Positions 1,109-13,226 of a stretch of 64,000 nt of DNA are shown here, one piece after another. A program made the translations under genes and the position numbers. The DNA is from an uncultured Modestobacter sp. (GTDB taxonomy: Bacteria; Actinomycetota; Actinomycetes; Mycobacteriales; Geodermatophilaceae): positions 1-64,000 of the forward strand of contig NZ_CANKUD010000009.1 in the NCBI RefSeq assembly GCF_947486615.1, in the 5' to 3' direction. Every line of letters starts with the position of its first letter. Position 1 is the stretch's first letter. A model generated the notes under the pieces. That model was not told the DNA's origin. It saw only the letters and a list, made by a program, of their open reading frames with translations, and searched no databases.

Positions 1109-1950
1109 TCAGTACGCGGGGTCGAGGTACAGCAGCGCGTAGGCGGCCAGCCAGTGCTCGACCATGTAGTCGCTGCCGCTGACGTGCGGCATCGCCGCGT
1201 CGGCGTGCTCGGCGGCCGAGGCCAGCAGGACGTCGGCGGCGCCGGGCAGCGCCGCGGCCAGCCGGCGCAGGCACCAGGCCCGGCTGAGGTTGAGCCCGTG
1301 CAGGTGGGCCGTCTGCCCGTCGCCGGCGTCGCTGACCACCGCGGGGGCGAACAGCGGCCCCTCGGCGAGCCCGGGCAGGAAGCGGGCCAGCCACGGTCCG
1401 GGCTCGGGCAGCACCTCGGTCATCAGCACCGCCTCGACCAGGGACGGGGAGAGGAAGTCCGAGCCGGAGGGCTCCCAGCGCACGGGGGCGTCGGCGTCCG
1501 CGCTGAAGAACCGGCGGGCTGCGTCGCTCAGCCTCCCGTCCACCCCGGCGCGGCGGGCGGCCGGCAGCGACATGAGCAGCCCGAAGGCACTGCTGGGGTG
1601 CAGGCCGGTGCGCACCGGGTAGGTCGCCGCCGGCAGCCACCGGTCGAAGGCCCCGAGGAAGTGGTCGGCCAGCGGCTGCAGGGTCGCGGCCCACCGGCGG
1701 ACGTCGTCCGGCGCGTCGGGCTCGGCCGCCCAGGACGCCGCCTCCTCGACCAGGGTCAGCGCCCAGGCCCAGCCGTACGGCCGCTCCCAGCCGGGGTTCG
1801 CGACCGCGTGCGCCACCTCGGCGGCGATCGAGGGCGCCGTCCAGTGCTCGTCGAACACGGCCCGGACCTCGTCGGCCGGCACGTCGTCGGGAGCCACCCG
1901 GAGCAAGCGGAGCAGCACCCAGTGCATCTCCACGGCGGAGTGCCAGTCGT
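1109..1950 (-). pseudogene. 3' fragment of a DUF2891-family gene split by the island
   Basis: Carries the C-terminal five-sixths of a DUF2891-type protein: WHSAVEMHWVLLRLLR, ERPYGWAWAL, YPVRTGLHPSSAFGL, WEPSGSDFLSPSLVEAVLM, HLHGLNLSRAWCLRRLA and HWLAAYALLYLD. The frame meets a TAG stop just upstream, inside island DNA, so the N-terminus is missing. An internal ATG at 1933 could start a 274-aa truncated product. The missing part is at 13223-13383. Merging the shared TCGT (1947-1950 with 13223-13226) gives a continuous 999-nt frame of 332 codons plus stop. DUF2891 has no established biochemical function. Confidence 0.9.
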
Positions 1951-1974
1951 TCTATCGGGTGTTCGGCACTGTTC
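1947..1974. repeat. left element end: TCGT core and GTTC-type repeats
   Basis: TCGT (1947-1950) joins host DNA to the element. GTTCTATCGG (1949-1958) mirrors the right end. TGTTC recurs at 1960-1964 and 1970-1974, 10 bases apart, suggesting repeated recombinase-binding half sites. Confidence 0.65.
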
Positions 1975-2057
1975 ATGAGGCTGGCTGCTGGTCACCGCGG
2001 CACGGGCTTCCGGGGTCCCCGACCGCCTCCTACACCGCGCTTAGTGGCGGCGCATGT

Positions 2058-2558
2058 TCAGCCGCGCGAGTAGTTCTGGACGAGGATCCGGAACGGCGGA
2101 GGCTCGGGGGTGGCAGCCTGACACTCGGTGCGTCGCACCTTCACCTCGACCTGGACCTCGTGGTGAGGCCCCGCGATCGCCGTCCACCCGATCTGTCCGT
2201 CCTCGACCTCGAAGGGGCGGCGGAGCGCGTGCGCGACCGACTTCAGGATCGCGACTGGGTCTGGAGCGACGAGCGGGGTGATAGAGACCACCTCGGAGAG
2301 TGGGATCGAGAACTCCGAGCCGTCGTCCAACTCGACATCGAACCCCGGCAGTCGTGCCTCACGGTAGAGGTCTGTCTGGCCGTCCCCATCGGCGTCATCT
2401 CTGAACCAGACGGGTCCTGCGGGACAGCCCTCAACTCGTTGCCCATCGCGCAGGACCACGAGGATGCGCTCATGCATCCCTAGCCAAGTCGACGTGTGGC
2501 TCTCGCCCGTCTCCGACGGCGCTTGCCAGCACGTGCAGCGATCAGGTGCGTGGGGCAT
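2058..2558 (-). CDS. island cargo protein, function unknown (166 aa)
   Basis: I start at the ATG at 2558 (MPHAPDRCTCWQ) because GAGGAG lies 4-5 bases upstream; the frame extends back to 2636 and a later ATG gives MHERILVVLRDG. The N-terminus has a CxC, and the middle reads like a small beta-rich fold (ILVVLRDGQRVEGCPAGPVWF, then GFDVELDDGSEFSIPLSEVVSITPL). The tail is PPPFRILVQNYSRG. It is the leftmost gene of the element and reads toward the left end. No family recognised, and no link to the neighbouring defence-like genes can be shown. Confidence 0.55.
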   Translation of the reverse strand: MPHAPDRCTCWQAPSETGESHTSTWLGMHERILVVLRDGQRVEGCPAGPVWFRDDADGDGQTDLYREARLPGFDVELDDGSEFSIPLSEVVSITPLVAPDPVAILKSVAHALRRPFEVEDGQIGWTAIAGPHHEVQVEVKVRRTECQAATPEPPPFRILVQNYSRG

Positions 2559-2771
2559 GGGTCTCCTCGCGGTCGCAGCGGTGACTCCTGCTGGTGTGCC
2601 TACGGCGACGATAGTGGCCGACCGGTTGGTGACCACTACTACAGCGGTCCAGCAGCCACTGCGCTCCGGAGGCCGCCTCTCGCAACCGTTGACTTGCGGG
2701 CGCGCGGCCGACCTCGCATGGCCAGCATGAAGGACTGTGAACCCCTCAGACGGGTTCGAGACGGCCGGTCC

Positions 2772-3347
2772 TCAGCGCAACTGGCCCTGCGCCGTTGCGG
2801 GATCAAGTAGGGCTGCCCGCCACTGCGAGGGCGGGGTGCGCCCGTGCGCGCCCAGGAGGACTGGGCCGAGGTCCGCGACTGCGGCGAAGCCTTCGTCGCG
2901 GTAGTGCATCCACAGCATGAAGGTGTGTCCGTCAACGTCGATGGTGCTCGGCTGCCAGACCGCCGGGTCTCCGAGCGCTGCGACCACCTTGTCGGCGCCT
3001 TCCTGCGCGGCTTCGGTGAGTTGCTGCAACTCGTCGTGCGGCAGCCCGTTGGGCACATGAGCGAGCAGCAACGTGCCGACTGTGGCTGTGGTCGCGCTGT
3101 GTATGCCCATGTCGAGTGTCCAGCCGCCGTTCCCGCCGGGGCGGCATCCACGACGGGCGAAGGTTGTAAGCCGCCAGGGCGGGTCCTGATCGCCCGGCGC
3201 CGGAGCCACCTCGACTGACTCCCAGTACGCGCCACCGGGGTCGCCACCGGCCCGGCTGCGGCCAGTGCCGGATACCCACAACTCTGGGACGCCGGTCGGG
3301 ACTGCTACGGGCATGTCTAGACCGGCCAAGGACAAGGTGTCGCTCAT
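2772..3347 (-). CDS. island cargo protein, function unknown (191 aa)
   Basis: A soluble-looking protein with a Gly/Pro-rich N-terminal half and an alpha/beta-like second half (TVGTLLLAHVPNGLPHDELQQLTEAAQEGADKV-type helix, then STIDVDGHTFMLWMHYRDEGFAAVADLG). The ATG at 3347 has GGAAG about 6 bases upstream. It lies upstream of the 166-aa gene on the same strand with a 213-base gap. The second half loosely resembles small actinobacterial proteins encoded near immunity or toxin genes, but I recognise no family. Confidence 0.55.
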   Translation of the reverse strand: MSDTLSLAGLDMPVAVPTGVPELWVSGTGRSRAGGDPGGAYWESVEVAPAPGDQDPPWRLTTFARRGCRPGGNGGWTLDMGIHSATTATVGTLLLAHVPNGLPHDELQQLTEAAQEGADKVVAALGDPAVWQPSTIDVDGHTFMLWMHYRDEGFAAVADLGPVLLGAHGRTPPSQWRAALLDPATAQGQLR

Positions 3348-3881
3348 CTGCGCTTCCTACCTGATAGCGATCGGGTTGGACAGCGCCCCGCGGATGACGA
3401 TCTGTCGAGGCCGACCAGGTGGTGCTCCGGTGCCGCGCCGGGCACTGCCCTCCGACACCACACGCGGTCGAGAGCGACGGCGTGGCCCCGCTCCGGCCCG
3501 TAGAGCCACGAGGACGGAGCGGGGTGGCTAAGCCCGATCGCGCCACTGGCTCGGACAACTTCTTGAACCGCCTCCTACCCGGTCCACGAGGTCCGTGCGC
3601 CCAGGGCGCGACCATTCGCCCTTGGCGCGGGCCGGACGGTAGTTCCGACCTATGACAGTCGACCAGGAGTGCTCCCGATCGTTGACGACCCGGCAGCGGT
3701 ATCGAAAGGCCGGAGCACGTGCCGACGGGATGTCATCGCGCCCGCAGCCGCCCTCAGGCTGCGGTGCCCCGGCGAAGCCAGCGCGCTACGCCAGCGAAGC
3801 GTCGGGCTGACCATCCAGCCCGACAGAGCATGTTCGCGGACCAGGTGGGCCGCCCGACGCAGCGGCTCACTAGGGAACGGA
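3348..3881. other. island stretch without a supported gene
   Basis: Open frames here have no Shine-Dalgarno and arginine/proline-rich shadow-like translations. The frame upstream of the Abi_C gene stays open back to 3669, but its translation before 4341 has no domain character. I see no clear promoter or terminator. Confidence 0.4.
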
Positions 3882-4082
3882 TCAACGCGTAGGCGACGCG
3901 GGCAACCCCTTCATTCGACGCCAAAGGATCACAGGGACACCGGCTCCCGACGCACCGCCGCCAACCAGGGCCTGCATGTCGGTGGACCAGCCCGTCAACG
4001 CGACGACGAGGAGTGCGACGACAACGGCCAAGCCGAGCCCCAGCGCCGCGGTGAAAACAGCCCAGGTAGTCCGCTCGTTCAC
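3882..4082 (-). CDS. small two-helix membrane protein
   Basis: 66 aa starting at GTG. A hydrophobic helix runs from about residue 6 to 31 (AVFTAALGLGLAVVVALLVV), followed by a short polar turn and a second segment (ALVGGGASGAGVPVILW) ending in a positive tail (RRMKGLPASPTR). GGAGG lies about 13 bases upstream of the GTG, which is a long spacing. The hydrophobic pattern is unlike the arginine-rich shadows nearby, so I take it as real. It lies back to back with the Abi_C gene and could be an effector, but that is a guess. Confidence 0.45.
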   Translation of the reverse strand: MNERTTWAVFTAALGLGLAVVVALLVVALTGWSTDMQALVGGGASGAGVPVILWRRMKGLPASPTR

Positions 4083-4340
4083 ACCGCCAAGATGACCTCC
4101 GCGCCGCCCCCGAGACGCACGGGGCTGCCAGGGTCCCCTGAACGAGTGATTACCGGCGTAGCGACGGATTCATCCCTGAGGCCGCTCTCGCGGACAGGGG
4201 TGCCAACACATGAAGGCCGCAGGCCAGCCTCAAGGGCCTCACCGCTGTGCAGGACCATCCCCTCACCCGGCGCACGCGCCCTCTCGAACTCGTGCTGGAC
4301 CTACCCGAAGAACCCGTTGACGGGTCTAGACAATGAGGTC

Positions 4341-5153
4341 GTGACCCAGCCCCCCGTCTCGGACGAGATCGCCGGTGCCCTTGGGCACTTCTTCTTCGGA
4401 GGCATCGGCCCTAGTCACACCTCTCTGACTGGCGTCTTCTTGCGAGCGGGACTGAGTGATGCGGACCCTTACGTGCCCTCCGAAGGGACGCCCAGCAAGG
4501 AAGTACGTGTCCAGCACGTGGTGCGCGCAGCGATGCGCCAGCCTGCATCGGCTCGCAAGTTGATCGACGGGCTCCTGACACAACTGAGGTTGAAGGGCTC
4601 GTTCGGACCAGACGGACCGAACTTCGACCCCAAAACCGTGCACACCGCACAGACGGCGTTCCGCCGAAGCGGCTGGGGCCTCTCAGCCGACGGCACGCTA
4701 GCCCCTCTCGGACACATCGACTTGGTAACTGGCGGCAGGGAGGCGCTGGACGAGCAACTCGATCGCCTTCGTCGCTCCACCGACGACCCCGGCCAACTCC
4801 TCGGCAGTGCGAAAGACCTCTTGGAGGCCATAGCCAAGTTCGTCCTGGAAGAGTGGGGCACGCCTCAGGACGCCGACTTCAACCACCTTTGGTTCTTGGC
4901 ACGCGATCGTTTGGGGACGCATCCAAAGCAGGTAGTCAAAGACGGCCCGGCCGCAGAACAAATCCGGAAGATTCTCCAGGCGTCGTGGACGATCGCCGAA
5001 CAGGTGAATGAGTTGCGGAACATTCAGGGCTCTGGCCACGGGCGCACGCTGCCAACTGGCGTGACACCGGAGATGGCGCTTCTGGTCGTTAGAGAGGCGT
5101 GCTCGGTCGCCCAGTTCACCCTGTCGACGCTCGACCGGTCACTGGGTCGATGA
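4341..5153 (+). CDS. Abi_C-domain (abortive infection C-terminus) protein, defence candidate
   Basis: 270 aa from GTG at 4341, with GAGG immediately upstream; TTG at 4317 is an alternative. Residues about 140-265 match the Abi_C pattern: DDPGQLLGSAKDLLEAIAKFVLEE, a segment starting HLWFLARDRLG, then an amphipathic helix and VNELRNIQGSGHGR, ending in a helix (ALLVVREACSVAQFTLSTL). R226-N-(x5)-H233 fits the R-x(4-6)-H signature of HEPN ribonucleases. The N-terminal 130 residues are unassigned. Its TGA overlaps the ATG of the next gene (ATGA), so the two are probably translationally coupled. Family members are associated with phage abortive infection; activity here is inferred. Confidence 0.75.
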   Translation: MTQPPVSDEIAGALGHFFFGGIGPSHTSLTGVFLRAGLSDADPYVPSEGTPSKEVRVQHVVRAAMRQPASARKLIDGLLTQLRLKGSFGPDGPNFDPKTVHTAQTAFRRSGWGLSADGTLAPLGHIDLVTGGREALDEQLDRLRRSTDDPGQLLGSAKDLLEAIAKFVLEEWGTPQDADFNHLWFLARDRLGTHPKQVVKDGPAAEQIRKILQASWTIAEQVNELRNIQGSGHGRTLPTGVTPEMALLVVREACSVAQFTLSTLDRSLGR

Positions 5154-7099
5154 ACGGTCCCCTGGCGGACGATGCATGTCAGGAGGACCTCGTCGAGGGT
5201 CTGGTCTTCGCGCTACAGAGCGTCGACGCGATCGGGCTGAGCCCACTGCCGCTCTCCGCACTGGTCGCCGAGATCGAAGAATGGGCTGTATCGGCGCGAG
5301 ACGATCCGTGGAGACGCGCCCGCGCGTCCCTACGAGAAGAGGTGAACGCCACCCTCCGGGTCGTTGGCTCCACCCTTCGCGCCAGCGTGGCTGAGCCGCT
5401 GTCGCGCTACGTAGAAGCCTTCGAAGCAATAGCCTCCGCGAAGCCCCGCGACGCCGAGACCGTGGCGGACATCCGGCGATCCGCCAGCGCCCTCGTCGAG
5501 GCGCTTTCGACGCCTGTATCGCTTGAGGCTTCGTGGCGCGACATGGAGAAAGCCGTCGCCTCCGACGACCTGTTCGCTGCTGTCGCCGCCGCCTCTCAAC
5601 TCAAGGGTCAACTCTCATTAGGCGGCCGGGACAGCAAGGAGGTATTAGCCGATCTGCTGCGCATCCTCCGTCGGGACGCATGGTCGGTTGACCTGGCGAT
5701 GCGTCGACTCGACGGTGGGACAGCGCGGCCATGGCGAGAGTTGGCCGAGGCGGCAACAGCCGACGTAGCGGCCGAGGACCTCCGCAACCTGGCATGTCGC
5801 ACTCTTATTGAACCGGGGCGAGAAGGCCACGTGGTTGTGTGGTCGCTCTACGACCACGCGATCACGCTTCAAGGCATTACCTCTCTCGGGCCGCTCACGA
5901 TCTTGCTACCGCAATGGATTGTCGAAGTAGCCTTCGGTGGCTCTGGGCACGAGTTGCCTCTGGCCGAAGAAGTTCGCAAGTTGTCCGAAGAAGTTCGCAA
6001 GTTGTGGCGCGCCGAGTCAGACCGTGACGAAGGCTACGACTACACGCAGCACGTATTGATTCGGGTCGACCTTGGAGTCCGCTCCCCAGTGGGCGGGCTG
6101 GATGCTGCGGCCGACCTCATCGAAACCCTCATGGACGCCCTTCTTAGCATTGGCAGCGACAGTCGGTGGGGTAAGGCCGTCTGGTCGACCATGTTGGTAG
6201 ACGGCGAAGAGCAAGCCTCGCGTTTTGGGCGCGGCAGCAGGCGCTCGGACTTCGCTGACTCTATGGGCATGGAGGCGACATGGGACGCCCTGAATGTAGA
6301 CGCCGAAGGATTCGCACGCGCCCTAGTTGCACGTCCCGTGCCGTGGCACCTGAGGGAGGCGCTGCGCATCTCCGCCGAGGCGTCGCACGCCACGTCAAGA
6401 GCCGTCGCCCTCTACGACGAGTGGCACAACGACGACCGAACAGTGCTTCTGCTGTTGGACTCAGCCTTTGAGCACGTCGCCGCACTTGCCGGAACTGAGG
6501 CGAGCCTCCTCAGTAAGAAACTCAGTGACTTATGGCCAGCCGCACGTGGACGTCGCCTAATCCTCTGGGCCATCGATTCCTGCCTACATCGACGACAGAC
6601 TGGGAAAAGCCGCCCAGAAGACGCGGTCGCACTGGAACGGATGATCAAGGCGAAGACGGGTCATCGCCGAGGAACGTCGTTGCTAGTGGCCTACCGCAGC
6701 ATCGACCGGCTCACAGCGTTGGCTGGGTCTCGACTTCAGCGGGCGGTCGTGCACCGCGTCGTGGGCCAACTTGGCGACGCCCGCCTTCATGCATTGGAGA
6801 GTGACCGCCTCAGCGAAGACGCCCAGCTTGCGATCAGCAGACAACGTCGGGTCCGGAACGCACTCACCCACGGAAACCCAGTGACCCGCTTCGTGCTCGC
6901 ATCCGTTGTGGACTACTCCCGCTTTCGTACCGGCGTGGCTGTCCGGGCAGCGCTCGACTCGTACGCGGACGGAGTGGCTATGAACGACTATCTTCGAGAC
7001 AAAGAGCAAGAACGTGCGACGGACACCGAGGAGATGCGTCGTGGCAGGTCGCAGATTGACATCTGGGAGGCGGAGATGCCCGAGGCCATCGGCGAGTAG
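5150..7099 (+). CDS. large partner of the Abi_C protein, HEPN-like C-terminal motif, unknown
   Basis: 649 aa from the ATG at 5150, which overlaps the stop of the Abi_C gene as ATGA. It is largely helical with no membrane segment, P-loop or nuclease motif that I can identify. Near the C-terminus, RNALTHG (R569 to H574) is an R-x4-H motif preceded by basic SRQRRV and followed by a helix, the usual look of a HEPN active site. A perfect 21-bp tandem duplication (5964-5984, 5985-6005) encodes two EEVRKLS-type heptads. The coupling argues that both proteins act together, perhaps as sensor and RNase or as two HEPN subunits. No named family recognised. Confidence 0.7.
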   Translation: MNGPLADDACQEDLVEGLVFALQSVDAIGLSPLPLSALVAEIEEWAVSARDDPWRRARASLREEVNATLRVVGSTLRASVAEPLSRYVEAFEAIASAKPRDAETVADIRRSASALVEALSTPVSLEASWRDMEKAVASDDLFAAVAAASQLKGQLSLGGRDSKEVLADLLRILRRDAWSVDLAMRRLDGGTARPWRELAEAATADVAAEDLRNLACRTLIEPGREGHVVVWSLYDHAITLQGITSLGPLTILLPQWIVEVAFGGSGHELPLAEEVRKLSEEVRKLWRAESDRDEGYDYTQHVLIRVDLGVRSPVGGLDAAADLIETLMDALLSIGSDSRWGKAVWSTMLVDGEEQASRFGRGSRRSDFADSMGMEATWDALNVDAEGFARALVARPVPWHLREALRISAEASHATSRAVALYDEWHNDDRTVLLLLDSAFEHVAALAGTEASLLSKKLSDLWPAARGRRLILWAIDSCLHRRQTGKSRPEDAVALERMIKAKTGHRRGTSLLVAYRSIDRLTALAGSRLQRAVVHRVVGQLGDARLHALESDRLSEDAQLAISRQRRVRNALTHGNPVTRFVLASVVDYSRFRTGVAVRAALDSYADGVAMNDYLRDKEQERATDTEEMRRGRSQIDIWEAEMPEAIGE

Positions 7100-7137
7100 C
7101 AGACTAGGCGCTCGTTTTCGGCCAGTGACGGCACTAC

Positions 7138-7683
7138 CTATCGGCTGCCTCGGGGTCGCCAAGGGGTCACTGTTGCATTCGCCTCTTGCAGCGTCTGATT
7201 CTCCTGCTTGAGTTGTTCGATCTGAGCCAACAGTCGCTGCTCTTTCAGGTTGGCGATTCGCACCTTCTCTTCAACATTGGCCCGCTTCACTTGCTCGACC
7301 TGCACTACGCGGGCCAGCGCCTCAGCGGCCGACTTCCACTCCGCCCTTTCTTCGCGCATCGTGTCGTACTTTGATTGGAGCGCGTCCCGCTCTTCTCGCA
7401 CCTTCCAGTTCTTGGCGATGAGCGCCGCTTCCCGAGGATTGGGTGTGTCGTAGTCCCTTTTGAGGCGTTCGAAGAGATCGCGCAGGTCGGCATAGGCACG
7501 GTAGAGATCGTTTCTGGTTACTCCTGCTTCTTCCGCGAGCGCACCGACTGATCGATTGCCCGGCTCCACGCGCGACGGAGTTCCGGCGAGCATCCGCCGG
7601 ATCGCGTCAACAATGTTCCGACGGATCGGGTCAGTCTCCTGAGGCAAGACCGGCTTTGGTAAGTCGTCAACGACTTCACTCAC
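7138..7683 (-). CDS. HTH/coiled-coil recombination helper (TnpC-like)
   Basis: 181 aa starting at GTG, overlapping the previous gene's TGA as GTGA. Residues 45-72 (SVGALAEEAGVTRNDLYRAY) look like a helix-turn-helix. Residues about 92-170 are heptad-rich, with runs such as VEEKVRIANLKEQRLLAQIE, and form a long coiled coil. The tail is short and basic. As the last gene of the recombinase operon it holds the position of tnpC in Tn554, whose product is a small accessory protein affecting efficiency or orientation of transposition. KfrA-like DNA-binding proteins have a similar plan. Role inferred from position and architecture. Confidence 0.7.
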   Translation of the reverse strand: MSEVVDDLPKPVLPQETDPIRRNIVDAIRRMLAGTPSRVEPGNRSVGALAEEAGVTRNDLYRAYADLRDLFERLKRDYDTPNPREAALIAKNWKVREERDALQSKYDTMREERAEWKSAAEALARVVQVEQVKRANVEEKVRIANLKEQRLLAQIEQLKQENQTLQEANATVTPWRPRGSR

Positions 7684-9830
7684 GGCGCATCCCCTGTCTC
7701 GCCCGGCAGCATGACGATGCGGCGCGACCGCTCATGTTCGGCGATGGTGGCCCTGGCCTCTGCGGCGTGTTGCTCAAGTCGAATCGCCAGCGGTTCCGGC
7801 AGCAAAGGACTTTGCGCTTCGAGCATGTGCCTCCGCTCTTCCTCGCGTAGGCGGCTGATCTGAATGTCTGTTCGCGCGTGGTTGGCGCATGACTTCTTGC
7901 AGTCAGCGCGGTCAGGGGTGTCTGTGCCATGGCACATCGCAGTCGAACGGTTGAAGACACAAAGGCTGTATGCGTGTGGGTTGTCGTACACCTGGAACGC
8001 CGGGTCTGTGAGGATCCGGCGTTCATCCTTGTCGCTCTGGAACGTCGCCAGTAGTGGACGCACCGCCTGAGCCTTCGCGACCAATCGATCCGCAGCGGGT
8101 CCTGAGACGCCCAGACCCGTGGTGAGCGCATCGCTAACCGTTTCAAGCAACTGGAGGAACGCTTCGGCGCGCTCCCGACCCATCATCTTCTGGAGCCCGA
8201 CGCCAGAGGCCGAGGCGTAGCCGTTCCGACCGAGAGCCGTGGCAGCGTGCTCGTACTGGAACGCCAAGGCAATGTCACCGCCCGGCTGATTCTCGATGTG
8301 CCACGCGATCGTGCGCCGGAATGCGCTTACGTCGACACCTCCTGACGCGTTTTCCTGGATCCGGTAAGCGTCGGGCAGCCCGAGATCAGCGACCATCCCG
8401 TTCGCGTACTCGATGAACTCAGCGATGCGGTCGCCTGCGACTTGAGTTCCCATGGCTTCGCGTCGCTCACTAGCGAACACGAAACGAGTCTCCTCGTCCA
8501 GCGCTTCCAAGACCGCGATGGCATCGGCGGCAGGCTTCACCGTTCCCCAGCGCTTCTCATTGCCTTCAGGCACACGTTCGCCATCAGCGAGGACGCCCTT
8601 GTGGACTCGACCTCGAAGGTAGTAGCGGATCGGGCCCTCTGGTTGGTCCGCCGGAGGGGGTACGACCTCGACACAACCCCGCTCCAGCAAGAGCATTTCG
8701 TGCGGACGCATGCCTGACAGGTAGCCAACCACCACCAGTGCCGCCGCCTGGAGCAGTTTAACCATGATCGGGGGCCCACCGCCGGATACCTTCGCCACAT
8801 CATGGAAGTCGATACCGGTAGTCCATTGACGGTCGTGGATTCGCCCCGTGATCGGCACGCTGACCGTCGTATCGGCGTTCACGTTGACCGCGAACTGGCC
8901 CTTCCAGTCGGTTGCCGCGCCGCTTATTGCCGCCCTGCTGATCCCGTAGCGCGCAGCCAGGTAGAGGGAGGCAATGCGGGGGCCGCTTGGTCCTTGCCTC
9001 GCGGGCAAGTAGCCGTGTTCTGCGAGGTACTGGCGGAGTACGGGACGAGCGCTCGACGGATCGGCGGGAATGTCCCGGATCATCTGCTCGACGTGCGCCT
9101 TGGCGGCAAGGATGTCCGCCGCGAAGTCACGGATGAAGGCGAGGGCCCAGATGAGCAGGGGGTCCATAGTGTCCGGGTCGATCACGGAAGTCAGGTTTGG
9201 CCCGGCAGTTCCCTTGCGGAACCGGAAGCCGGAGTCCATCCATTCCGGACGCGGCAGTCGGTCAGCGGCGGGGAGTTCGTCTCCGAAGGCGTGCAGGCGC
9301 GAGACGCATCCAAGGAGTGCGTCCTTTGCCCGGTCTTTCACCTTGAGAGCGCCGACATGGAGCCTGAAGCGCTCCAACAGGCCGGGCGTCACGTCGCTGA
9401 GGACATACACGTCCTCACTCGCCAGCCATCTGAAGAAGCGCTTCCATCGCTCGAACTCCCGGCCAGTGGACGTGGCCGAGAGCCATTCCACAGCGTTGCT
9501 TCCTCTGCTGTTGAAGAGAACAGCCGGAGTAGGTCGATTGATGAGGAGGTAGGCAGCCCGGCGCGCGGTTGCGTCGTACTCCGCAGGGACACCCTCCGAT
9601 CGACGGGGCGAGAAGTGTAGTGACTGCCCCCCGCGCGTATTCGCGAGCACGCCAAGGGCCGCCAGCGGCCATTCGTCGGCGCTCACCGGCGCGATCGTGG
9701 CTTTCGGGTCTCGAACACGAGCACTACTGACACTGGGCTCATCCGCCTGAAGTTCAAGGCCAGACGAGCGTGGGCTGTCAGTTGCCGCGCCGGGCCAAGA
9801 GCGCCAGGTCGCGCGCTCGCTAAGCGACAA
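7680..9830 (-). CDS. large tyrosine recombinase (third of the trio)
   Basis: 716 aa. Conserved recombinase features are GYLSGMRPHEMLLLE (box I Arg R375), VSAFRRTIAWH (R505 in box II; the usual His before it is Ser), YEHAATALGRNGYAS (H528, proposed nucleophile Y538). The C-terminal region has a Cys/His cluster (CVFNRSTAMCHGT then CKKSCANHA) that may bind zinc. It is much longer than typical XerC/D-type enzymes (about 300 aa) and nearer Tn554 TnpB (about 630 aa). It overlaps the middle gene by 11 bases and the helper gene by 4, so expression is coupled. Confidence 0.85.
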   Translation of the reverse strand: MSLSERATWRSWPGAATDSPRSSGLELQADEPSVSSARVRDPKATIAPVSADEWPLAALGVLANTRGGQSLHFSPRRSEGVPAEYDATARRAAYLLINRPTPAVLFNSRGSNAVEWLSATSTGREFERWKRFFRWLASEDVYVLSDVTPGLLERFRLHVGALKVKDRAKDALLGCVSRLHAFGDELPAADRLPRPEWMDSGFRFRKGTAGPNLTSVIDPDTMDPLLIWALAFIRDFAADILAAKAHVEQMIRDIPADPSSARPVLRQYLAEHGYLPARQGPSGPRIASLYLAARYGISRAAISGAATDWKGQFAVNVNADTTVSVPITGRIHDRQWTTGIDFHDVAKVSGGGPPIMVKLLQAAALVVVGYLSGMRPHEMLLLERGCVEVVPPPADQPEGPIRYYLRGRVHKGVLADGERVPEGNEKRWGTVKPAADAIAVLEALDEETRFVFASERREAMGTQVAGDRIAEFIEYANGMVADLGLPDAYRIQENASGGVDVSAFRRTIAWHIENQPGGDIALAFQYEHAATALGRNGYASASGVGLQKMMGRERAEAFLQLLETVSDALTTGLGVSGPAADRLVAKAQAVRPLLATFQSDKDERRILTDPAFQVYDNPHAYSLCVFNRSTAMCHGTDTPDRADCKKSCANHARTDIQISRLREEERRHMLEAQSPLLPEPLAIRLEQHAAEARATIAEHERSRRIVMLPGETGDAP

Positions 9831-11571
9831 CGTCGTACTCCCCCGCGAAGAGCGCTCTTACGTACGTGCGGTCGACCTCGGTGGCCTCGGCCAGAGCCGC
9901 TTTGCGCCGCTGGGGGGTCATACGCACACGGTCGTCCAGGAACGCGCTGAGTCGCACGTAGTCATCCGACCACCGAACCCACGCGGAGTCGCTTAGCGCC
10001 CCCCTCAGGTCCTCCAGGACTTGGTGGATGAGGCACAGCCGAGGGAGGTGCCTGGGCGTGGCCACAGCATTGGTACATGTGAGGCACATCAGGAAGTTGG
10101 CCCGGCACTCTTCCCCAGTGACTGGGTGGCAGTGGATGTCACGACAGGCGACAGTCGCAGTGTCCTTGCTTCCCGAGTTGATGGCGTCCTCCACATCCTT
10201 CTCATCGGAAAGGAGAAGCACCAGTCTTGCTTCCGCTCGGGTCTGCGCTTGAGCCAGACCTGCACGCACCACCTCCCACGCCTCTTCGCGCGCTTGATCA
10301 TCCAAGGCGAGGTACTTCTCGACATGTGTTCGAGGCGTGTTGTGTGTCGGGGCGCGCTCCACTCGGGTCTGGAATGTTCGGTGAAGTTTCTGGTAGTCGA
10401 CGTTCACCCCGGCAGGCAGCCACGGCGAGTGGTACCGGATTCCGTTGGTGCCCCCGAGCGGAACGCCGCTGAAGACATCAGTGGAGAGGGTCCGAGGACC
10501 GCCCTGTCGCCCGCTCCGCGTAGCAGAGATCAGGAGCAGGTCGGTGTGTTGGCCCCGCACGGCCAGGTACGCCCGAGCGGGATCGGTCGCCTCTGCGATC
10601 AGTCGGTATGCGTACCCGGAACTGCCCCTACCGCTGTCAACATAGGTGCTCGTAAAATGGCGTCGCCGACCGCGCCGCTTCTTGTCGATGGGGACCGCAT
10701 AGACGTTGACATCGGTTTCACCAGCGCCTGGGCGGTCGCTGGCGATGAGTTGCCGTTCGAGGGTGGACTTGTTGAACCCTTCGAGGCAGGTGAGGAGCAC
10801 GGCCGCTGCCGTGACCTCCTCTGGACTCAAGAAGAGGGCATGCTTCTTGTCGGGATGCCGGGAAGGGCTGAAGTCGCGTGGGCTGCCCAAAGCATCGGCG
10901 ACCTCGCCATCTGCTGGATCGGGTCCGGTCAGCATCCTTGACAAGACGCGGGCCTTGAGTTGCTCTTCCTGACTCAAGTCGTCTTCGCCGTCGCGCAGGG
11001 CTAACTCGTAGTTCTGGGTGATCCGTTGATGCGCCGCCTCTAACGCGTCGCGGGCAGTCCGCTGGAGCGCTCGGAACTCCGGTTCGCTGTAGGTGGCCTG
11101 ACTGCTTGCTGCCTTGACCGACCCAACCCGCCTCGACATGGCCCACTTGGTACGCTTGGAAACTTCTGGCACATCGAGCAGCAGTGCGCGCGTGTAGACC
11201 GTTCCCGCGATGTAACCGCTGCGCGGATAGGTTTCTTCAAGATGCTCTTTCCACGCGCCCCAGTCACTGTCCTGCATGTCGGCGAAAGACGTGATGCCGC
11301 GCGCCTCGCACCACTGTGTCAGTGCCTTCGCCCAGCGCATCGGATCGTTGACCGTCGAACGGGATGTCCAAGTGCCCAACGTGCCCGTCTTAACGGCGAA
11401 GGCTCGTGCGAGTTGCTGACGGAGGCGCTCGCTTCCCGCCCAGCCGGTGAGATCGATGATGCGCGGCTTAGCCCCAGGCTCCTCGGGCGTCCAAGTGACC
11501 TTGAGCCCGTTCTCGGACATCGCCTCGGGAAAATCAAACCCGACCGGCAGTTTCGCCCGCTTACGCGGCAT
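9820..11571 (-). CDS. recombinase-like protein, probably catalytically degenerate (second of the trio)
   Basis: 583 aa. The N-terminal part resembles a SAM-like core-binding domain (WTSRSTVNDPMRWAKALTQW, FADMQDSDWGAWKEHLEE). The expected box I reads TCLEGFNKSTLERQLI (about 261-276), with Asn/Lys where the catalytic Arg should be. I find no convincing H-x-x-R / H / Tyr set. The C-terminal part has a Cys cluster (CRDIHCHPVTGEEC then CLTCTNAV, about 475-510) reminiscent of the Cys-rich tail of the 716-aa protein. The ATG overlaps the previous stop as TAATG. It is probably a structural subunit of a hetero-oligomeric recombinase. Confidence 0.75.
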   Translation of the reverse strand: MPRKRAKLPVGFDFPEAMSENGLKVTWTPEEPGAKPRIIDLTGWAGSERLRQQLARAFAVKTGTLGTWTSRSTVNDPMRWAKALTQWCEARGITSFADMQDSDWGAWKEHLEETYPRSGYIAGTVYTRALLLDVPEVSKRTKWAMSRRVGSVKAASSQATYSEPEFRALQRTARDALEAAHQRITQNYELALRDGEDDLSQEEQLKARVLSRMLTGPDPADGEVADALGSPRDFSPSRHPDKKHALFLSPEEVTAAAVLLTCLEGFNKSTLERQLIASDRPGAGETDVNVYAVPIDKKRRGRRRHFTSTYVDSGRGSSGYAYRLIAEATDPARAYLAVRGQHTDLLLISATRSGRQGGPRTLSTDVFSGVPLGGTNGIRYHSPWLPAGVNVDYQKLHRTFQTRVERAPTHNTPRTHVEKYLALDDQAREEAWEVVRAGLAQAQTRAEARLVLLLSDEKDVEDAINSGSKDTATVACRDIHCHPVTGEECRANFLMCLTCTNAVATPRHLPRLCLIHQVLEDLRGALSDSAWVRWSDDYVRLSAFLDDRVRMTPQRRKAALAEATEVDRTYVRALFAGEYDVVA

Positions 11572-13166
11572 TAGGCCATCTCTCCTGTCGACAGGGCGCG
11601 AACATCGAGGATCCGCGAGCCGCCCGGACCGCCGGAAGCGATAGACTCGATGATCTCGTTCAGTGACCTATCGACGCTCGCCTCGTCGAACAGCATGGAT
11701 CGGCGAAGACCCTTCACCGGTTCGAGGTACGTGTCTTTGGTGGTCGTGACGCTTGCGTGTCCCAGCAGGTCCCGAACTGTGTCGTACGCCTGCTCGTATC
11801 GCCTCGCGTCGTAGCCGTCGGTGCTTCGGTAGCCCTCCTGCTCGTCGACGCGCCGGTGGAGAGCAGCCAGCAGATACAACGCGAAAGAGAACCGGAGACT
11901 GTGGGGCGAGAGTCGGATCGACATCGAGCGCGGCAGCCCCAGCCGGACAAACTCCCGCTCGACCCGGTCGTTGGCCCCGTCGAAGGCATCGTTCCAACTG
12001 TTCATACGAAGTGGCAGTCCGGCGTCGCTCAGCCACAGCGCCAGCGGCTCAGCGGCTGAGGGGGTGCCGTCGGCGTTCGTGGTCAGCATCAGGAGACGAA
12101 GTCGCTCGTCCTCGTCCAGGTCTCCGACGGACCGGATCTCTCCTCCGTTGAGAACCAAGTCCAAGCCATCTCGCTGATCCTCGACCGCTATGACGTGGAT
12201 CGGGTTCGCCATCCGTTCATAGCGGCCTTCCCGCTGGGCTCGCCGGACGGCCGCTGCCCTCTGGAAGCGGAGGTACTCGTGAACGTTCTGAAGACCAGCG
12301 GCCAAGGGCGTCCACATGCGAGCCCGGTCGTACTTCGCGACCGCACCGCCGAGCGGAATCTCTCGGGGCTCGGTGGGGACTTCGATTGTCAACAGAGAAG
12401 CGAGTTCGGTCCGTCGCAGCGCTGACGTGATCATCAAGTCTGTGTATGCCCTGTTGCGGCTCTGCTCACGGCCACCACGCCACAGGGCGTCGTGGCCACC
12501 CGGAACAACTCCGCGCCCCTGCCGCTCGGCCTGGTAGCCGAGGAGCCCTACGTCTCTCCACGTAGCGTAGGTGGCCGGGGTGACCCACCTCGAACGATTG
12601 GCCCGAACGTTGCTGGCCCCAGGCTCACGCCGACCCCGGAGCGTCCCGACCTTCTCTGGGATCGGCGAGGCGACCACGTACTGTCGCGACTTGGCCTCCG
12701 CCCATGCGTACAGGGCGGTCAGCGCTGCGTGCGTCTTTCTGAAGGTTGTTGGGTCGACCACGGGCGCACTCTCGCCCGGCTCGACCTGATGCAGGGACGG
12801 GTCCGTGCGCCACCGTTTGAACTGCGAATAGTGGATCTCCGACGCTTCGTCCCAACGCACGTCCTGTTGCCACAGGAAGTCGACCCAGGTTCGGATCTCG
12901 CGGGCATAGGTGAGTCGGCCACTCAGTGCCTGGTTCGTGAAGGTGTCCGACCGGGCGAAGAACTCGACCAGTCGCTCGTCGATCAAGAAGTCGGGCGCGA
13001 CGAGGATCGGAGTGCCGTCCGGTATGTACAGGAGCCGTTCCTGCTCGCTCAGGTCGAGGTAGTCGCCCAGTGCGGGGTGGAGGTGTGCGGGGACCCCGGA
13101 GGCCCGTGTCGCGGTGACCAGCAGCCAGTCCTCGCCCGGCCGGTTCTCATCCCTCACGCTGATCAA
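11571..13166 (-). CDS. tyrosine recombinase/integrase (first of the trio)
   Basis: 531 aa with the full catalytic set: ITSALRRTELASLL (R251), LSPHSLRFSFALYLL (H422, R425), LLGHASVTTTKDTYLEP (H470, Y480). An N-terminal SAM-like core-binding region (about 75-160) precedes the catalytic domain. It starts at TTG 13166 or GTG 13157; neither has a good Shine-Dalgarno. It is the promoter-proximal gene, only about 60 bases from the right end of the element, so transcription probably starts within or next to the recombination site and may change when the element excises. Confidence 0.88.
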   Translation of the reverse strand: MISVRDENRPGEDWLLVTATRASGVPAHLHPALGDYLDLSEQERLLYIPDGTPILVAPDFLIDERLVEFFARSDTFTNQALSGRLTYAREIRTWVDFLWQQDVRWDEASEIHYSQFKRWRTDPSLHQVEPGESAPVVDPTTFRKTHAALTALYAWAEAKSRQYVVASPIPEKVGTLRGRREPGASNVRANRSRWVTPATYATWRDVGLLGYQAERQGRGVVPGGHDALWRGGREQSRNRAYTDLMITSALRRTELASLLTIEVPTEPREIPLGGAVAKYDRARMWTPLAAGLQNVHEYLRFQRAAAVRRAQREGRYERMANPIHVIAVEDQRDGLDLVLNGGEIRSVGDLDEDERLRLLMLTTNADGTPSAAEPLALWLSDAGLPLRMNSWNDAFDGANDRVEREFVRLGLPRSMSIRLSPHSLRFSFALYLLAALHRRVDEQEGYRSTDGYDARRYEQAYDTVRDLLGHASVTTTKDTYLEPVKGLRRSMLFDEASVDRSLNEIIESIASGGPGGSRILDVRALSTGEMA

Positions 13167-13191
13167 TGTACTGGGTGGAATGATCAGATCA
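13160..13191. promoter_or_regulatory. TGATCA-type palindromes upstream of the recombinase operon
   Basis: TGATCAGATCA (13181-13191) is a perfect palindrome, and TGATCA recurs at 13160-13165, covering the TTG start. They lie between the element end and the first recombinase gene and are plausible operators. No regulator can be assigned. Confidence 0.35.
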
Positions 13192-13196
13192 CGTTA

Positions 13197-13226
13197 GAAC
13201 ACCGCTGATGCCGACAGAACATTCGT
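13197..13226. repeat. right element end: TCGT core and GTTC-type repeats
   Basis: Reading inward on the minus strand: TCGT core (13223-13226), then GTTCTGTCGG (13220-13211), which matches the left end at 9 of 10 positions. TGTTC occurs at 13221-13217 and again at 13201-13197, 20 bases apart. Confidence 0.65.

Follow-up and report, generated by a model that had tools for sequence, protein, structure and literature searches.

Do two overlapping genes on a mobile island form one abortive-infection system, or are they separate genes placed side by side? This question is raised by a pair of plus-strand genes in a 64,000-nucleotide stretch of DNA from an uncultured Modestobacter sp. (contig NZ_CANKUD010000009.1), the whole of which is referred to here as the window. 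A sequence-only reading of this DNA had proposed that the two genes are coupled and act as an RNA-targeting abortive-infection module. The pair was laid out as follows.

4341–5153, plus strand: gene 1, an Abi_C (HEPN-type) protein of 270 aa; start GTG at 4341, stop TGA at 5153; motif R226-N227...H233
5150–7099, plus strand: gene 2, a 649-aa protein of an actinobacterial family without assignment; start ATG at 5150, stop TAG; helical N-terminal part, alpha/beta middle (226–359) and helical C-terminal part with R564..R567.RNAxxHGxP

The stop codon TGA of gene 1 (5151–5153) and the start codon ATG of gene 2 (5150–5152) overlapped in ATGA, and both the coordinates and the overlap that had been claimed for these plus-strand genes were borne out. 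The GTG start of gene 1 coincided with the point at which the alignments of its relatives begin. No ribosome site of gene 2's own was obvious by eye; the gene is therefore likely co-expressed with gene 1 here, and co-translation of the two at this locus is presumed.

The mobile island around the gene pair

GInt islands carry the genes ginABCD, and their cargo begins beside the ginD stop, according to the available part of the text of Bardaji et al. (2017; PMC5385486). The features identified around the gene pair were as follows.

1109–1933, minus strand: larger fragment of the host gene that the island interrupts, DUF2891 (Pfam PF11199, E 5.2e-85, profile positions 50–324 of 325)
1948–13222, no strand: GInt-type mobile island of ~11.3 kb, with an empty site in relatives and borders good to a few bases
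2772–3347, minus strand: possible cargo open reading frame (ORF) of 191 aa, matching no family over its cut-off
7138–7683, minus strand: ginD-like small protein of 181 aa, matched beside recombinase genes in four of five other regions; weak DUF6262 match, below cut-off
7680–9830, minus strand: ginC-like recombinase-related protein of 716 aa, with matches in other gin cassettes
9820–11571, minus strand: ginB-like protein of 583 aa, with matches in other gin cassettes
11571–13166, minus strand: ginA-like tyrosine recombinase of 531 aa; Phage_integrase and XerC-like matches, both below cut-off

Every one of the 23 genomes of the genus (the window's own among them) matched the right-flank DNA, and position 1950 of the window ran straight to 13220 at 9 of 11 loci in same-genus relatives, which therefore presented the empty site. 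Compared with this empty site (CCAGTCGTAGCTG), the island junctions read CCAGTCG at the border with TTCTATCGG and CCGACAGAACATTCG at the border with TAGCTG. They marked one clean insertion site with an imperfect direct repeat of ~7 bases (CAGTCGT/CATTCGT), and the ends of the island formed a 10-base inverted repeat with one mismatch (GTTCTATCGG / CCGACAGAAC). An insertion of ~11.3 kb into the DUF2891 gene fits the junction bases.

The four minus-strand genes running from 13166 to 7138 (531, 583, 716 and 181 aa) were found in the same order in the cassettes of three other genomes (G097, G237 and G235). In a further cassette (G222) all four gin genes were matched, ginB in two ORFs, while in the fifth other region (L110, from G255) only ginA and ginC were matched. 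Residues R251, H422, R425, H470 and Y480 of the ginA-like protein were invariant with four relatives and are read as its putative catalytic set. The mobile element is a GInt-type island, and the gene pair is its ginD-side cargo. The pair had been described as the sole plus-strand cargo of a mobile element, and it was found to be the only convincing plus-strand cargo in the island; the other cargo span (1951–4340, 2.4 kb) held two possible minus-strand ORFs, with no Pfam match over cut-off. In G237, two tandem gin cassettes with identical scores were located ~7 kb apart (L108, 7469–17965), possibly a double GInt insertion with little cargo.

Conserved arginine and histidine residues of the two proteins

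The HEPN signature is defined as Rx4-6H with a polar residue after the arginine, as given in the available part of the text of Anantharaman et al. (2013; PMC3710099). Family matches give good support for assigning gene 1 as an Abi_C/HEPN-type protein. The Pfam Abi_C family (PF14355) matched residues 187–261 with E 2.3e-15 and 56.9 bits, against a gathering cut-off of 24, and the AbiJ model of PADLOC gave a weak match in the same region (E 0.0014); residues 1–186 matched no Pfam family. The protein contained an R(N)xxGxGHG-like Abi_C motif, of which R226, G230, G232 and H233 were unchanged across all 22 rows of the alignment (A4) and N227 and G234 nearly so, which confirmed the claimed C-terminal Abi_C domain with R226-x6-H233. 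The nearest relatives were those of G194 (64%), a Hoyosella plasmid (58%) and G498 (53%).

In the predicted structure of gene 1 (pLDDT 89.8), R226 was placed near the end of helix 205–229 and H233 in the loop that precedes the final helix. The top Foldseek match of this model was the HEPN structure 2hsb, with a probability of 1.00, a TM by target of 0.67 and a weak E value (0.32). HEPN structures were conspicuous among the matches, with 1o3u (probability 0.92) and HepT 6m6w (0.69) at lower ranks; E values of the HEPN rows ran from 0.32 to 3.0, and no match in this search reached E 0.001. A sequence search for solved relatives of gene 1 returned nine weak matches, mostly to designed proteins, which were read as helix-composition matches and set aside.

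At E up to 1, Pfam, PADLOC and NCBIfam contained no match for gene 2, which agrees with the earlier remark that it was not recognisable as any named family. When 28 members of its family were compared with Pfam, no family matched more than two members and no HEPN family was among the matches; PADLOC gave weak matches only, including CARF_HEPN models in one and two members (best E 0.0011). Whole-protein searches detected relatives in 4 of 72,556 plasmid records. Among 298 genomes sampled from the order there were three holders (the window's genome and two others), and among 393 from the class there were five (the window's and four others). A scan of genome_contigs seeded with the gene 2 motif, which relatives lacking the motif would escape, yielded 27 loci, each from a record with an actinobacterial title. 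No relatives were found in 50,697 phage records, and none were confirmed among the IMG/VR viral contigs. The closest relative, from Blastococcus, was 48–49% identical, and every record in which the family was seen here carried an Actinomycetota title.

The R569-x4-H574 motif, which the sequence-only reading had placed in a helical C-terminus of gene 2, was strictly conserved, and the C-terminal part was helical in the model. Residues R564, R567, R569, N570, A571, H574, G575 and P577 did not vary in any of the 28 rows of alignment A2. This alignment comprised 28 of the 33 loci, with the fragmented or split loci L025, L029, L030, L031 and L033 excluded (alignment A3 holds 24 of the 28; L006 and L008 denote a single place). 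The motif was also kept in 10 of 10 sequences, the window's included, from the whole-protein search, which was not motif-seeded; the ORFs rechecked in this set had been picked by the presence of RNx3H, and every locus had such an ORF. Across these ten sequences the motif stretch was the most conserved 12-residue segment (0.91 vs a mean of 0.44), and the motif was also present in an eleventh copy that is broken across two frames. A distant relative from G074 read RSRNAAVHGGP at this position, and the background rate of RNx3H was 14 in 659 coding-like ORFs. As judged from these alignments, gene 2 represents a real protein family with a truly conserved R-x4-H motif.

The predicted structure of gene 2 (pLDDT 78.7) comprised a helical region at 6–173, a poorly predicted stretch at ~175–222, an alpha/beta region at 226–359 and a mostly helical remainder. 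R569 and H574 closed helix 544–574, and helices 580–648 came next. This succession, in which a long helix ends in R-N and H and further helices come after, resembled that of the Abi_C model of gene 1. For the whole gene 2 model, none of the 218 PDB and 233 BFVD matches from Foldseek had E <= 0.001. Homology of the C-terminal part to Abi_C was also considered and was rejected on a profile comparison that gave no match over the motif (probability 1%). Two weak matches from the search for solved relatives by sequence (a metastasis-suppressor protein, E 0.0035, and a designed bundle) were again attributed to helix composition. The HEPN-like reading of gene 2 rests on the motif and its position, with the fold presumed, because no fold match was found.

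Occurrence of the two genes in other bacteria

A conserved two-gene system predicts that its two families are found together. The survey of gene pairing that the sequence-only reading had proposed revealed the opposite: the second gene was rarely found with the first, the outcome that had been named there as a refutation. PF14355 was sought in the 32 genomes and plasmid records in which gene 2 has a relative, and it was present in one and absent from 31, where plasmid entries cover the plasmid only and not the host chromosome; in control genomes it was found in 0 of 14. In the one of these 32 with both, the Abi_C gene was located at position 200,332 of one contig and gene 2 on another contig of 121,844 bases. 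Gene 1 was found in 21 and gene 2 in 3 of the 298 genomes of the order sample, and in 22 and 5, respectively, of the 393 genomes of the class sample; in each case the window's genome was the only one common to both lists. No gene 1 relatives were detected in the flanks of other gene 2 loci (phmmer, E up to 1; flanks of 1.5 to 8 kb, shorter at contig ends), nor in wider flanks of L062 and L063, and no gene 2 relatives were found in the flanks of gene 1's nearest relatives (G194, Hoyosella plasmid and G498). The pair as one system was rejected on these co-occurrence counts. The two genes occur separately in other bacteria and are therefore probably neighbours by chance, not the halves of a two-part system.

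The neighbourhoods of the gene 2 relatives were also analysed. Within ~6 kb in 33 loci, no recurrent partner was identified beyond mobile and general defence genes, the commonest neighbour family being a serine recombinase (7 of 33 loci, two near-identical). Three relatives (L011, L022 and L023) were located within ~8 kb of GajA and GajB in Gabija-like pairs, and RmrA was near L022. These observations fit mobile, defence-bearing surroundings; three Gabija neighbours in 33 loci, with no background rate taken, are an insufficient basis for naming gene 2 a defence gene.

For Abi_C genes in general, a post hoc count showed a same-strand downstream RNx3H gene within 90 bp at 4 of 41 distinct places, the window's included (of 42 places, L095 was excluded as having no ORF match); the motif, the spacing and the 90-bp limit were all chosen after looking at the data. 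The four downstream genes were all of different kinds, with RNALTH in the window, RNLCVH in the Hoyosella plasmid, RNVAEH in G097 and RNDAGHP in a 253-aa protein in G237. In Hoyosella subflava plasmid pAS9A-2 (L058, 6001–8264), the 58%-identical Abi_C gene was followed 35 bases on by a 466-aa protein whose N-terminal part matched PD-T7-3 (PADLOC PDLC04108, E 2.7e-18). At a further locus (L053) the RNx3H gene was 193 bp away from Abi_C.

A test fixed in advance was then applied to 28 new Abi_C loci, taking clear downstream same-strand genes within 150 bp, and RNx3H was found in 0 of 7 such genes, one of which was a second Abi_C gene. In seven other loci (L123, L127, L130, L131, L132, L136 and L137) the downstream ORFs were short or poorly coding, none held RNx3H, and they are not among the seven genes counted. 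Upstream ORFs, scanned in 13 of the 28 loci, included one with RNx3H (L126, RNEIVH, 164 bp away). Four of the 13 matches of one Abi_C search were left out of the test (the window's own and three already seen), and the neighbourhoods of 18 of 40 plasmid Abi_C records were read, 15 of them for the test. Gene calls in Abi_C loci without annotation were ORF-based and rough. The pattern, suggestive post hoc and not reproduced in the preset test, was rejected as a rule and is retained as a lead only.

Several other arrangements were seen around Abi_C genes. In a distant GInt-like element (L106, 7035–8778, in G097), an Abi_C gene at the ginD side was followed by the 260-aa gene with RNVAEH, which parallels the window. 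A type I restriction system lay a few kb away from the Hoyosella gene pair. The Abi_C gene overlapped its upstream gene by four bases in L060 (4225–5648), L064 (6360–7975) and L151 (1557–2887); this upstream gene was annotated as a 'recombinase family protein' in L060 and L151, and in L064 it was an unannotated ORF holding a resolvase-like stretch (YARVSTAGQ). In a Streptomyces subrutilus plasmid (L140, 2342–4179), two different Abi_C genes stood in tandem, 41 bases apart.

Explanations of the locus and comparison with known systems

The reading that we favour, and consider fairly probable, is that the locus represents ginD-side GInt cargo with two separate HEPN-type defence genes and not one system. 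The obligate two-component abortive-infection system originally proposed would account for the ATGA overlap, the shared strand and the two conserved R-H motifs, but the pair was present in one genome only, Abi_C was unlinked in the single other gene 2 holder that had it, and the positives of the two genome samples overlapped only in the window's genome. We regard an obligate system as very improbable, and it is largely refuted by this lack of co-occurrence. A looser arrangement, in which Abi_C is the constant half of a modular pair, its downstream RN-x3-H partner is interchangeable (in the window, a member of the 649-aa family) and both RNases act together, is rather improbable: the 4 of 41 Abi_C places with such a gene of varied kind, set against the background rate among ORFs, speak for it, whereas the preset test returned none, its definition was picked post hoc, and RNx3H was also seen 193 bp off in L053 and upstream in L126. 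Its fullest form is more doubtful still; there, Actinomycetota would possess a modular immune scheme built from two RNases, in which Abi_C proteins supply one half and unrelated second HEPN-type proteins that differ from island to island, the 649-aa family among them, supply the other; the two might form mixed HEPN dimers, with sensing done by one partner and cutting by both.

It is also conceivable, though unlikely, that gene 2 is neither HEPN nor RNase and that the RNAxxHGxP stretch has a structural or binding role within a large helical protein. The Pfam matches of the 28 members, the Foldseek search and the profile comparison with the Abi_C alignment are consistent with this explanation. 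However, the strict R-N-x3-H with a polar residue after the arginine is the HEPN form given in the available part of PMC3710099, the motif ends a long helix with further helices next, much as in the Abi_C model, and one to two of the 28 members gave weak CARF_HEPN matches.

With two separate defence genes as the favoured reading, the N-terminal part of gene 1 would sense a trigger and its C-terminal HEPN domain would cut RNA once phage infection is sensed, by analogy with other HEPN abortive-infection proteins. Gene 2 would stand alone, with its helical N-terminal part and alpha/beta middle as the presumed sensor or regulator and its C-terminal helical part with R-N-x3-H as a putative second HEPN-like RNase site. 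The head-to-tail ATGA arrangement would have arisen because the island's cargo slot, presumably through cargo exchange, put both genes there. By the same analogy, both genes are likely RNA-targeting and phage-related, with RNase activity and a phage trigger presumed for each. Of the RNA-targeting abortive-infection module first claimed, the Abi_C/HEPN-type character of gene 1 and the conserved R-x4-H of gene 2 stood, while the conserved coupling failed.

An ATGA overlap inside an island is, therefore, weak evidence for a system. The strict HEPN-like signature and the mobile context make the gene 2 family a reasonable candidate for phage tests, and modular pairing, if true, would give Abi_C proteins partners to test. 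Among the full-text matches listed, no title dealt with a pair of Abi_C and a second HEPN protein or with the defence cargo of actinobacterial GInts.

Compared with Abi_C/AbiJ-type HEPN abortive-infection proteins, gene 1 shares the PF14355 match, the weak PADLOC AbiJ match, the invariant arginine and histidine and a HEPN-like model, but differs in its first 186 aa, which match no Pfam family. We infer that AbiJ and Abi_C belong to one HEPN family; the name Abi_C is not used in the available part of PMC3710099. Gene 2 resembles the HEPN superfamily in its strictly conserved R-N-x3-H in a helical C-terminal part, with the polar N570 after R569, and differs from it in having neither a Pfam HEPN match nor a fold match for the whole model. 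PD-T7-3 (PDLC04108) is matched by the N-terminal part of the gene after gene 1's Hoyosella relative, a gene that the gene 2 profile does not match. Relative to the GInts described in the available part of PMC5385486, whose repeats are 10–17 nt, the island has ~7 bases in common at its junctions and its insertion interrupts DUF2891. As in those GInts, it has three recombinase-like genes and a small fourth gene in a row, a short imperfect direct repeat at its junctions and an empty site in relatives, and the end of gene 2 at 7099 adjoins the ginD stop at 7138.
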